A stretch of 64,000 nt of DNA, from contig NKIW01000004.1 in the NCBI GenBank assembly GCA_002256205.1, positions 139,802 through 203,801 on the forward strand, given 5' to 3'. Position 1 is the first letter of the stretch. Each line of letters begins with the position of its first letter. The DNA is from Rhizobiales bacterium PAR1. Its GTDB lineage: Bacteria > Pseudomonadota > Alphaproteobacteria > Rhizobiales > Beijerinckiaceae. The position numbers were made by a program, and so were the translations under genes. Below are positions 27,348-31,882 of the stretch, in pieces. The notes beneath the pieces were generated by a model. It did not search any database, was not told the DNA's origin, and saw only the letters and a list, made by a program, of their open reading frames with translations.

Positions 27348-29768
27348 TTAGCCACGCAAGACCGCGCCGGTCTTCGCCGTGACTTCACTGACGAGTTTGC
27401 CCGAGAAAGCTTCAATTTCCGTATCGGTCAGGGTCTTTTCTCGCGGCTGCAACGTCACAGCCAACCCGATCGAGACCTTGCCCGGCTCCACACCCTTGCC
27501 AGCATAGACGTCGAAGATCGTCACATCTTGAACGAGCGTCTTGTCGATGCCGCGCGCGAGGCGCAGGAGCGTTTCGGCCTCGACCTTCTGATCGACAACA
27601 AAGGCAAAATCGCGGCTGACCGGCTGCAATTCAGCCAGATCGAGTTTGGCTTTCGCCTTGGTCGCCTTCTTTTTCGGCGAGGGCAGGCCATCGAGCACCA
27701 CCTCAAAGGCGACGATCCGCCCTTCCGCACCAAGCGCGTCGACCGCGCGCGGATGGAGTTCACCGAACCAGCCGATGATATCCTTCGGGCCGAAGCGGAG
27801 GATCGCAGAGCGGCCGGGGTGCAGGAATTCTGGCAGGTTGGTCGAAACAATCTGCATGCCACCCGTCGGCACACTCATCGACGCCAGTGTCGCGAGCACA
27901 TCGGCTTTGACGTCATAGACATCGGCTTCGCTGGAGCCTGTCCAATGGCGGCCAGTACCTTCTGACGCCGCGAGGCCACGCCGCAAACCTGCCGCAGCAA
28001 TACGCTGATCGCGCTCGCCATCGCCCTTGAAGACCTGCCCGACCTCGAACAGCGCGACATCCGCGTAACCCCGATCCGCGTTGCGTTGCGAAGCCATTAC
28101 GAGGCCCGGCATCAGGCTCGGGCGCATGTCCGAGAGCTCGGAGGCAATCGGGTTGGCGAGCGCCAGCTCCGGTTTGCCACCCCCAAACAGGACGGCGGCC
28201 TTCTTCGAGACGAACGACCATGTCACCGCCTCAACGAGCCCGCGCGAGGCGAGGGCACGGCGCGCGATGCGGGTGCGCTGCTGAAGCGCGGTCAGCACGG
28301 GCTTATGCACCTCATCAACACGCTGGATCGGCACCAGTGGCACGGAATCCACGCCGACGATGCGGACGATTTCTTCCACGAGATCGGCCTTGCCCTCGAT
28401 ATCCGGACGCCAGGACGGCACCGCGACCTTGAGCATCGGGCCATTGCCCGAAACCCAGAAGCCGAGGGCGTTGAGGATCGCCTTCATCTCGACCTGCGCG
28501 ACCTCAAGGCCGGTGAGGCGCTTGACCTCGGAGATCGGGAAATCGACGATCTTCTCGACCTCCGGCACCGAGCCTTCGAGCGTGACCTGGCTCGGCGTAC
28601 CGCCGCAGAGATCGGTCACGAGCTTGGTTGCCAGCTCAATGCCCGGCAGCGTGAACGCCGGATCGATGCCGCGCTCGAAGCGGTAGCGCGCATCGGTGGA
28701 GATGCCGAGCTTGCGGCCGGTCTGCGCGATATTCAGCGGCGACCAGAGCGCGGATTCGATCAGCACATCGACGGTGTTCTCATCGCAGCCGGACACCTCG
28801 CCGCCCATGATACCGGCGATGGATTCGGGGCCGTTGTTATCGGCGATCACGACCATGGCGGTATCGAGGGCGTAGGTCTTGCCATCGAGCGCGAGCAGGC
28901 TCTCGCCTTCCTTGGCGCGGCGCACAACCAACGGGCCATGAACCTTCGCTGCATCGAAAACGTGCAGCGGGCGGCCACGGTCATAGGTCACGTAGTTGGT
29001 GATATCGACGAGCGCATTGATCGGGCGGAGGCCGATCGCGCGGAGGCGCTTCTGCATCCACTCCGGTGACGGGCCGTTTTTCACGCCGCGCACGAGGCGG
29101 AGCGCGAAGGCCGGGCAGAGCGCGCGGTCATCGCCGGTGAAATCGAGTTTCACCGGCACAGTGCAGGCCGAATCGCCTTTCACCGCGGGAATACCGGCGT
29201 CTTTCAGCTTGCCGAGACCGGCAGCAGCCAGATCGCGCGCGATCCCGAAAACGCCGGTCGCATCCGGGCGGTTCGGGGTCAGGTTAATCTCGATGACGGG
29301 ATCGGAAAGCTTCGCCCATTCGGCGTAAATCGCGCCCACCGGCGCATCCGCCGGCAGATCGAGAATGCCGTCGTGATCCTCGGAAATCTCAAGCTCGCGC
29401 CCCGAGCAGAGCATGCCGGAGGATTCGACACCGCGAATCACGCCCTTGCCGATGGTGATGTCCTTGCCCGGAATATAGGTGCCGGGCGGGGAGAAGACCG
29501 ACTTCATGCCGGTGCGGGCGTTCGGCGCGCCGCAGACGACCTGCACAGGCGCGCCCGCGCCGGTTTCCACCATGCAGACGCGCAGGCGGTCGGCATTCGG
29601 GTGCTGCTCGGCGGAGATCACATAGGCAATCGTGAAGCCCGCGAGCTTCTTGCCGGGATCATCGACGCTTTCGACCTCAAGGCCGATTCGGGTCAGCGTT
29701 TCGACGATCACATCCAGCGATGCGTCGGTTTCGAGATGCTCTTTGAGCCAGGAGAGGGTGAATTTCAT
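27348..29768 (-). CDS. pheT: Phenylalanine--tRNA ligase beta subunit
   Basis: An 806-residue subunit of the alpha2-beta2 Phe[14 protein letters not shown] opens the B1 domain, the tRNA-binding OB-fold follows ([15 protein letters not shown], residues 57-71), then the B3/B4 editing domain, B5 and the C-terminal anticodon-binding ferredoxin-like domain. Length is normal. GAGG lies eight bases before the ATG, inside the end of the SH3-like gene. In most alphaproteobacteria pheT follows pheS closely; here 1.03 kb with two extra genes and a scar separate them. Confidence 0.97.
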
Positions 29769-29778
29769 GTCTTGAACC

Positions 29779-30231
29779 TCAATCCGCCAGCACTTTGACG
29801 AAGCGCTTATGGACCCAGCCGGATTTGCAGGGGCCGGTGTAAACTTTTTTGGCCGTCACGGTGGGCGGCGGGGGATTTTCGATCCCGCATGCCGCCTCAA
29901 GGCCGCCTTCCGGGCCTTCCTTCCTGTCGGCATAGATCACGCCGATGAAGGTGGCCTTCTTCCAGTCATCCAGCGGGTTGGCCGCCAGCACATAGTGCCC
30001 CAGCGTCAACCGGTCACGCTCGTTTCCTTTGGGGGAAGGCGCGCCACGCACACTGACATAGCCATCGCCGCCCTTTTTCAGCCCGACGATCTGGGCGACG
30101 GATGCAGCAGGCGCAATGGCCTTGCCGCCATCGACGAGCGGCACCAGCATCACCGGCTGATCCGGCACGGTTTGCGCGGAGGCCACCGAGGCCATGCCAA
30201 CAGCCAAAAGCGCAGAAAGGAGAAGCCTCAT
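29779..30231 (-). CDS. Secreted SH3-like protein inserted between pheS and pheT
   Basis: A 150-residue protein with a clear signal peptide ([17 protein letters not shown], cleavage about residue 19). The mature part has [45 protein letters not shown] and a C-terminal [16 protein letters not shown]; this order (VRxxPS, turn, W, GWVHxRFV) resembles a bacterial SH3 domain. Two cysteines may form a disulfide. Its ATG overlaps the TGA of the pheT'-pheS'' scar (ATGA), and it ends ten bases before pheT. It has nothing to do with tRNA charging as far as can be seen; it is a passenger in the pheST transcript. Confidence 0.8.
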
Positions 30232-30317
30232 ACGCTGAGCCCACCCGCCAGTGTCCGGAATTCAAGCGACGCGTCGGTTTCGAGATGCTCTTTGAGCCAG
30301 AAGAGGGTGAATTTCAT
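30228..30317 (-). pseudogene. In-frame scar: first 19 codons of pheT fused to last 8-10 codons of pheS
   Basis: A 29-codon reading frame starts [19 protein letters not shown], which repeats the first 18-19 residues of PheT (one Ser-to-Phe change; 53 of 57 bases identical to true pheT), and continues in frame with [10 protein letters not shown] and a stop, which repeats the PheS C-terminus TLAGGLSV. The pheS-like part differs from the resident pheS only at third codon positions across those eight residues. There is no ribosome binding site before the ATG, and the stop overlaps the start of the SH3-like gene. It marks a tandem junction of two pheS-spacer-pheT arrangements. Confidence 0.85.
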
Positions 30318-30330
30318 GGTTAGGTTCGTT

Positions 30331-30786
30331 TCACTTTTCTGAGTGATAAATGAAGCCGATCCTTATTGGCTTCTCGTGTCTCTTCTTTAGCGCGCATAAA
30401 AGAACGCTAATTTGCGACACGTGTTGGATCAAAGATACTTTTTCGCCATCTTGATTGATGCCTAGGAATTCCACGAATTGCCCACCAGCCGCGCCAATGC
30501 TTTCAGCGTGGAAAGTTAACCCAGTCCCGGCTGTAACCAACCGGAACCCCAATTCATGTTCGTTATCTAAACCATTTTCAAATTTCGAAATTTGCCGAGA
30601 GAGTGCCAAGCAAGCCAGCTCACTCTGCGAAGGCAGAGGCGTCAATTTGGGAACGCTGAAGGAGACAAGATCATTTCGAGATGGCATCCCTAGACCCGCG
30701 AATTTGGAAAGATCTGGCCCTTTCATTTTTTCCATCAACTTGGACAGGTCGGGCATCTTCGGCATTTTTGGAACATCATTCGACAT
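30331..30786 (-). CDS. AT-rich passenger gene between pheS and pheT, DUF6173-like
   Basis: A 151-residue cytosolic protein. The first 60 residues are Lys/Met/Pro-rich (KMPKMPDLSKLMEKMKGPDL); the rest is compact, with EHELGFRLVTAGTGLTFHAE, QFVEFLGINQDGEKVSLIQH and VSQISVLLCALKK. The H-V-S-Q-I-S core recalls the uncharacterised DUF6173 family, from memory and with moderate certainty. By hand count 30361-30780 is about 48% G+C, well below its neighbours, which suggests recent transfer. It starts 13 bases after the pheS stop and ends 13 bases before the pheT'-pheS'' scar. Confidence 0.75.
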   Translation of the reverse strand: MSNDVPKMPKMPDLSKLMEKMKGPDLSKFAGLGMPSRNDLVSFSVPKLTPLPSQSELACLALSRQISKFENGLDNEHELGFRLVTAGTGLTFHAESIGAAGGQFVEFLGINQDGEKVSLIQHVSQISVLLCALKKRHEKPIRIGFIYHSEK

Positions 30787-30799
30787 ATTGGCTTCCCGC

Positions 30800-31882
30800 T
30801 TAAACGCTCAGCCCACCCGCGAGCGTCGGCAGATCCAGCGGGCGGAAGCCGTAGTGCTTCAGCCAGCGGACATCGGCCTCAAAGAACGGGCGCAGGTCCG
30901 GCATGCCGTATTTCAGCATGGCGATACGGTCGATGCCCATGCCCCAGGCGTAGCCCTGCACGGCATCGGGATCGAGGCCGCAGTTGCGCAGCACATTGGC
31001 GTGCACCATGCCGCAGCCGAGGATTTCCAGCCAATCTTCCCCCTCGCCGAAGCGGATTTCCCCGCCCTTGCGCGAGCACTGGATATCGACCTCCATCGAA
31101 GGTTCCGTGAACGGAAAGAAGCTCGGGCGGAAGCGCATCTTGACCGAAGGCACCTCGAAGAACGCCTTGCAGAACTCCTCCAGCACCCATTTGAGTTGGC
31201 CGAGGTTGGCGGTCTTGTCGATCACCAGCCCCTCGACCTGATGAAACATCGGGGTGTGGGTCTGATCCGAATCGCAGCGATAGGTCCGGCCCGGACAGAT
31301 CACGCGGATCGGCGGCTTCTGCGCCAGCATCGTGCGGACCTGCACCGGTGAGGTATGCGTGCGCAGGAGCTTCCTCTCGCCGGCCTCGTTGGGCGCGAAG
31401 AAGAAGGTGTCGTGCATTTCGCGCGCCGGATGATGCGGCGGGAAATTCAGCTTGGTGAAGTTGAGATCGTCGCTCTCGACATCCGGCCCCTCAGCAATGG
31501 CAAAGCCGAGATCGGCGAAGATCGCGGTCAATTCGTCCATCACCTGAGAAATCGGGTGGATGCGCCCGGCCTCAATGCCGCTCTCACGCGTGGGGAGCGT
31601 GATATCGAGCCGCTCGGCGGCCAGGCGCTGATCGAGCGCGGCCTCCTTCAGCACGCCCTTGCGGGCGCCGAGAGCTTCGCTGACGCGATCCTTGAGCGCG
31701 TTGATGGCGGCGCCGGCGGCCTTGCGCTCGTCCGGCGCCATCGCGCCGAGAGTCGAAAGCAACGCGGAAACCGAGCCCTTCTTGCCAAGGGCACTCACCC
31801 GCACGGCCTCAATCGCGTCCTCACTGGAGGCCGCGGCGATTTCAGCCAGAAGGGTGGATTCGAGTGTGGACAAATCAGACAT
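30800..31882 (-). CDS. pheS: Phenylalanine--tRNA ligase alpha subunit
   Basis: A 360-residue catalytic subunit of PheRS. An N-terminal coiled coil (residues 1-90) is followed by the class II synthetase core: motif 2 region [10 protein letters not shown] and [12 protein letters not shown], then [11 protein letters not shown]-like [26 protein letters not shown] and motif 3 [10 protein letters not shown] near the C-terminus. It ends [10 protein letters not shown]. First gene of the pheS-X-scar-SH3-pheT transcript. A leader with two competing stems lies just upstream. Confidence 0.97.

Follow-up and report, generated by a model that had tools for sequence, protein, structure and literature searches.

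How two small, unrelated genes came to lie between pheS and pheT, the essential genes for the alpha and beta subunits of phenylalanyl-tRNA synthetase (PheRS), is the question raised by a 64,000-nt stretch of contig NKIW01000004.1 of Rhizobiales bacterium PAR1 (G000; the whole stretch is called the window below). Every element listed in a first-pass annotation of this DNA was found on the - strand: pheS, a gene for a DUF6173 protein (cargo X), a 29-codon frame (the scar), a gene for an SH3-like protein (cargo Y) and pheT. As the best explanation of this arrangement, we consider it probable that the pheS–pheT junction is a docking site and that out-of-register recombination stacked X and Y in it.

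Composition of the scar and its predicted parent haplotypes

The 29-codon frame consists solely of pheT and pheS sequence. Its 5' part reproduces the start of pheT at 53 of 57 nt, as the first-pass annotation had stated, and is closest to the resident gene, with 47 of the 49 non-overlapping bases identical against 46 in G004 and G007. Its last 41 nt align without gaps with the last 41 nt of the resident pheS (31/41). Within this part, the last eight codons agree with those for the PheS C-terminus TLAGGLSV at 20 of 24 nt, and all four differences fall on third positions. The earlier description of the pheS piece holds for these eight codons but not for its extent, since the likeness covers 41 rather than 24 nt and the codons immediately upstream read L-E-F-R against L-D-L-P in the resident gene. 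An independent repeat-finding approach recovered the same two segments, 57 nt at 95% (with a one-base shift) and 42 nt at 76%, with an overlap where the two meet. Compared with the genes of relatives, PAR1 itself excluded, the scar scored 92 against pheT starts and 42 against pheS ends, where 200 shuffles reached maxima of 25 and 30, respectively; its likeness to both genes is not due to chance.

The position of the join is equally specific. The longest word common to the two gene ends in PAR1 (120 nt each, from the 3' end of pheS and the 5' end of pheT) is CGCTGGAT (8 bp; pheS position -41 and pheT position +49, counting from 0), from which the scar copy deviates at two bases. Because parts of 57 and 41 nt are accommodated in a 90-nt frame, their overlap is exactly these 8 nt, and among 239 possible registers only that of the scar contains the 8-nt shared word, without any indel at the join. 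Both genes are in the same frame at the word, so that the fusion stayed open. A seam placed on the longest shared word looks like the signature of a non-allelic crossover between pheS-X-pheT and pheS-Y-pheT chromosomes.

Both single-cargo haplotypes predicted by the scar exist, since X stands alone in one genome and Y alone in another. X was matched in three other genomes among 397 of the order, and the best match (G028, locus L164, of another family) is the sole gene in the pheS–pheT spacer, with a stop that overlaps the start of pheT; the flanks read at the two remaining X loci held neither PheS nor PheT. The Y homologue of Rhizobiales bacterium 65-9 (L083; 34% identity, E 9e-20 in a single comparison), which matches Pfam SH3_3, is likewise the only gene between pheS and pheT. 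Neither genome is close enough to be the donor. With both haplotypes found and the seam on the longest shared word, a junction of two haplotypes, as first proposed from the sequence, is the best reading. An arrangement common to all relatives had been named as the result that would speak against it; this is not what was observed, as the search detected X and Y in none of the 16 other genus genomes (two of them only 78% and 83% complete).

The two halves of the scar also bear on the order of events. All 16 genus pheS genes examined (PAR1 included, G006 missing) encode LDL where the scar encodes LEF, and the closest form, LDF, occurs in 16 of 93 pheS rows typed (L057 repeating G002), all outside the genus. 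Over the whole 41 nt, the best outside matches reach 32/41, one base better than the resident gene. The origin of the pheS piece in a diverged homologue, also put forward in the first-pass annotation, is no more than suggested by these 41 nt. Because the pheT half is nearest the resident gene and the LEF of the pheS half is unlike the LDL of the genus, Y with its foreign pheS tail appears the likelier newcomer onto a pheS-X-pheT chromosome.

Cargo at the pheS–pheT spacer and at other operon joints

Our survey comprised 97 rows (17 genus genomes and 80 named loci), 81 of which held pheS and pheT on one stretch; the other 16 were excluded because the stretch ended too early or lacked pheT in range, and 79 loci remained after removal of the duplicates L059 (= G016) and L060 (= G014). 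The spacer measured less than 150 bp in 35 loci, including 11 with a 4-bp overlap, and 278–1631 bp, with cargo, in 44. Thirteen cargo-protein probes classed 43 of these 44 long spacers, in at least 12 families, composite loci being counted in every class they match. DUF559 was the most frequent (11 loci), followed by ASCH (9), GT21/HpnI-like (8), putatively HEPN-like proteins (7; the one tested had no Pfam match) and a second glycosyltransferase-like gene (4; by eye, without Pfam match). DUF4160+DUF2442, a weakly PycTM-like gene, GFA, SH3, DUF6173 and two membrane-protein-like families named by eye were each found in one or two loci. Variable cargo therefore lies between constant core flanks, and every probe match is co-directional with pheS–pheT.

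On a quick PheS tree, 32 of whose 76 inner branches are weak, the cargo label changes at least 32 times and the short/cargo state 21 times (counts without shuffle control). The Bradyrhizobium loci L116 and L118 carry different cargo between pheS and pheT windows that are 92–98% identical. Open frames of at least 45 codons begin in the pheS stop in 20 of the 44 cargo spacers, finish in the pheT start in 30 and do both in 14, counts likewise without a chance control; no open frame makes either overlap in PAR1. With the phrases tried, our literature search found no paper that describes gene insertion at the pheS–pheT junction.

Two side observations concern the same spacer. A recurrent pair of an HEPN-like protein (~160 aa) and a small protein (~100 aa), counted as one unit here, was seen in Methylobacterium and Lichenibacterium (L093, L101, L102, L122, L128, L131 and L134; the L101 pair had no Pfam match) and may be a toxin-antitoxin-like pair. 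In five genus genomes (G002, G005, G008, G010 and G011; L030, L033-L036, L138-L142), pheS and pheT stand apart, by ~46 kb in G005, by ~319 kb in G010 and on separate contigs in three; in G008 and G010, a frame resembling by eye the glycosyltransferase-like cargo still overlaps the pheS stop.

Six loci contain at least two probed units: G000 (X+Y), G003 (the DUF4160/DUF2442 pair with a membrane protein), G007 (ASCH with a glycosyltransferase-like gene) and L078, L079 and L084 (GT21+ASCH; two of these Bosea). All units of these four composite types were also seen at the site without their partner. Besides X and Y, these are the DUF pair in L065, the membrane protein in L071, ASCH in L105 and others, the glycosyltransferase-like gene in G012, G014 and L087, and GT21 in L069 and others. 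The composites are what junctions of single-cargo haplotypes would give.

The description of the spacer as an exchange site holds in view of this variation within the genus and across Hyphomicrobiales, but it is not the only such site. Genomes of the genus have spacers of at least 246 bp at glyQ-glyS (15/16), sucC-sucD (7/17) and trpB-trpA (3/17), and at pheS-pheT in 6 of 10 syntenic genomes. Because these three joints hold inserts too, genes habitually enter operon joints in genomes of the genus and not at pheS-pheT alone, which limits what can be claimed for this one site. The tight pair rpmI-rplT never exceeded 151 bp in 73 loci; rplT-pheS, with more than 300 bp in 29 of 79 loci, is likely a transcription-unit border. 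None of the 13 cargo probes matched in 25 control spacers of one genus (E up to 1e-4), an indication that the joints have separate gene pools. The inserts stand at L167-L182 (glyQ-glyS), L186-L196 (sucC-sucD) and L210, L211 and L214 (trpB-trpA), several with start/stop overlaps, and the sucC-sucD joint of PAR1 itself (L196) encloses a 116-aa gene.

Proposed exchange and its alternatives

The exchange that we favour would have begun with a pheS-X-pheT chromosome, at a junction where small genes would come and go between essential genes throughout Hyphomicrobiales. DNA of a relative, pheS*-Y-pheT, would have recombined with it out of register, joining pheT codons 17–19 to the corresponding 8-bp word close to the 3' end of pheS* in the incoming DNA, and the other side of the exchange would have resolved within or near pheT. 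The outcome would be X and Y stacked, both synthetase genes whole and a 90-nt fused stub between the cargos. Homology-facilitated illegitimate recombination (HFIR) or the collapse of a transient duplication would be the likeliest route; HFIR accounts for the seam in one step, and a collapsed duplication would leave an identical one. The anatomy and both parent types can be read directly, and from them we infer the event and its order. Since the fusion kept frame, translation of the stub probably begins at what was once the pheT start site, and the stub would hand ribosomes to Y through the ATGA overlap.

A tandem duplication of pheS-X-pheT within one lineage, followed by a deletion from pheT copy 1 to pheS copy 2 that left the stub, would yield the same scar, with Y arriving by another route, either earlier or later. 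The 8-bp word suits such a deletion too, and the closeness of the scar to the resident pheT (53/57) is in keeping with it. We nevertheless hold this history unlikely, as it accounts neither for a pheS half that looks foreign (LEF, with four synonymous changes among eight codons) nor for the presence of Y alone at the same site in L083. That the seam is an assembly artefact is brought to mind by the draft state of the genome (25 contigs). It is very improbable given a single match within the 499-kb contig, an estimated contamination of 1.49% and a scar several bases off both resident genes, unlike a chimera of resident reads. Delivery of Y (or X) by a mobile element or integrase, with the stub as its border, is the least credible alternative and is largely refuted: apart from the two scar repeats, the repeat search gave a single 12-bp palindrome and otherwise nothing but short imperfect repeats, Pfam returned no integrase or transposase match for X, Y or the stub, and the stub is entirely pheS and pheT sequence. 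An integron or transposon cassette is likewise not indicated by these features, attC models not having been run. What speaks for such delivery is that distant homologues of X occur next to a phage integrase and in nine plasmid records.

Several results weigh against an exchange between single-cargo haplotypes. An 8-bp shared word is not unusual, about one-quarter of codon-shuffled ends reaching 8, and the telling point is that the seam falls on the shared word, not the length of the word. Y was matched in 28 other genomes, and the 19 of these loci that were read all lacked PheS and PheT as neighbours. The donor was not found among the genomes sampled: sliding comparison of the PAR1 pheS and pheT with the genus revealed no donor tract, and pheT windows compared with nine relatives revealed no foreign tract, which leaves the homologous side of the crossover invisible; the donor tract would therefore have been short or from a close relative. 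In 17 Bradyrhizobium pairs, flank identity around shared cargo did not decay with distance. L098 combines a GFA-like gene with a second, unprobed gene, and as neither turned up at the site by itself, the decomposition into single units does not extend to every multi-gene spacer.

Scars were also missing elsewhere. The junctions of the five other composites (G003, G007, L078, L079 and L084) gave none above the 95% shuffle level, which L079 equalled against pheT starts, and no clear scar appeared in the other spacers of at least 60 bp (best 20 rows) or in the 25 control spacers. Some spacers scored 1 to 5 points above the maximum of 20 shuffles (e.g. L084 30/27, G003 29/24, L102 28/24, L126 25/20 and L175 25/21), and these were dismissed as short matches due to chance, given the 97/21 of PAR1. 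The PAR1 scar is the only seam found.

A second trace of a cargo-like gene moving with a pheT flank is seen in G014 (L137:3434-4331, C15, ~967 kb), where a weakly PycTM-matching gene, related to the L077 cargo (32% over 118 aa), is followed after 53 bp by decayed pheT codons 1–95, 590 kb from the working pheT. When the genomes of the family were probed with PheT residues 1–70, 237 of 248 matched, four of them twice; only PAR1 and G014 among these four hold such remnants. G601 has one copy beside pheS at a contig edge and a second long pheT-like frame, and the extra match of G604 spans residues 12–64 at 44%. Scar and G014 remnant both read MKFTLFWLK, with a codon-6 change present in none of 81 pheT starts; a link between them through this change was judged too weak.

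Gene gain of this type has precedents. In HFIR, known from Streptococcus pneumoniae, Acinetobacter baylyi and Pseudomonas stutzeri, incoming DNA is joined by homology at one end and mostly by 3–10 bp of microhomology at the other, and the insertion is generally accompanied by a deletion of similar size (PMC3240628). The 8 bp at the PAR1 junction fall within that range and the result is likewise a gene gain, whereas the homologous anchor is not visible and PAR1 kept X and both essential genes, in contrast to the usual deletion. In the type VI secretion system (T6SS) immunity-gene arrays of Vibrio cholerae, small genes are similarly stacked by successive additions at a fixed locus, for which the authors proposed an HFIR-akin mechanism (PMC5361080). 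In those arrays an effector is lost from its place while immunity genes accumulate, whereas here unrelated small genes are stacked between two essential synthetase genes.

The event is thus of a known kind with unusually legible evidence, and the site itself was not found described in the literature searched. Price, Arkin and Alm are said to have reported in 2006, in The Life-Cycle of Operons, that young small genes enter conserved operons; the present case differs from such general insertion in that cargos recur at pheS-pheT across families and one stacking left a readable seam. Gene entry into tight essential operons is usually inferred, and the single PAR1 seam reveals the point of crossover together with the frame and the two parent types. 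A broader reading, which we offer tentatively and with some doubt, would make pheS-pheT a communal allelic dock of Hyphomicrobiales, at which a site-specific gene pool circulates between species via the essential flanks and without an integrase, cargos plugging in by start/stop overlap and stacking by microhomology. The pheS stop and the G-rich last codons (AGGLS) would then serve as a built-in ribosome handover for cargo. If this dock were real, essential-operon joints would be places to seek exchanged small genes whose function is unknown (DUF559, DUF4160/DUF2442, DUF6173), and exchange would be testable in culturable Bradyrhizobium, Bosea or Methylobacterium.

Features of the locus

The gene order, on the strand of pheS, is rpmI, rplT, a porin-like gene (named by eye), pheS, X, the 29-codon frame, Y and pheT, and the locus is single-copy within the contig. 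A pattern scan of the coding strand from 29600 to 31000 returned neither promoter-like nor terminator-like sites, so that pheT could plausibly be expressed by transcription running through the cargo. Rfam gave nothing above gathering scores in 27–36 kb, PADLOC matched neither X nor Y, and Y itself has no Pfam match, its SH3-like label coming from the L083 homologue. Predicted structures were too poor for use, with a mean pLDDT of 37 for Y (two-row alignment) and 42 for X (single sequence).

Table 1. Coordinates, within the window, of pheS, pheT, the two cargo genes and the parts of the scar
Feature	Position	Strand	Evidence or remark
pheS (PheRS alpha)	30800..31882	-	Pfam tRNA-synt_2d 2e-97
Last 41 nt of pheS, resident counterpart of scar 3' part	30840-30800	-	
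Cargo X, DUF6173 protein, 151 aa	30331..30786	-	PF19670 4.8e-12
Scar 5' part, copy of pheT nt 1-57	30261..30317	-	53/57 match
Scar 3' part, copy of last 41 nt of a pheS including stop codon	30228..30268	-	31/41 to resident
Crossover word common to both scar parts	30261..30268	-	Longest word shared by gene ends, 1/239 registers
29-codon in-frame mini-ORF (90 nt)	30228..30317	-	Stop overlaps Y start, ATGA 30231-30228
Cargo Y, SH3-like protein, 150 aa	29779..30231	-	N-terminus resembles signal peptide (by eye)
pheT (PheRS beta), intact	27348..29768	-	Five PheT domains by Pfam
pheT copy of crossover word	29719-29712	-	

No paper on DUF6173 was found in the literature searched. In Pseudoalteromonas phage C5a (L225:377-784), a DUF6173-like gene adjoins a phage integrase.

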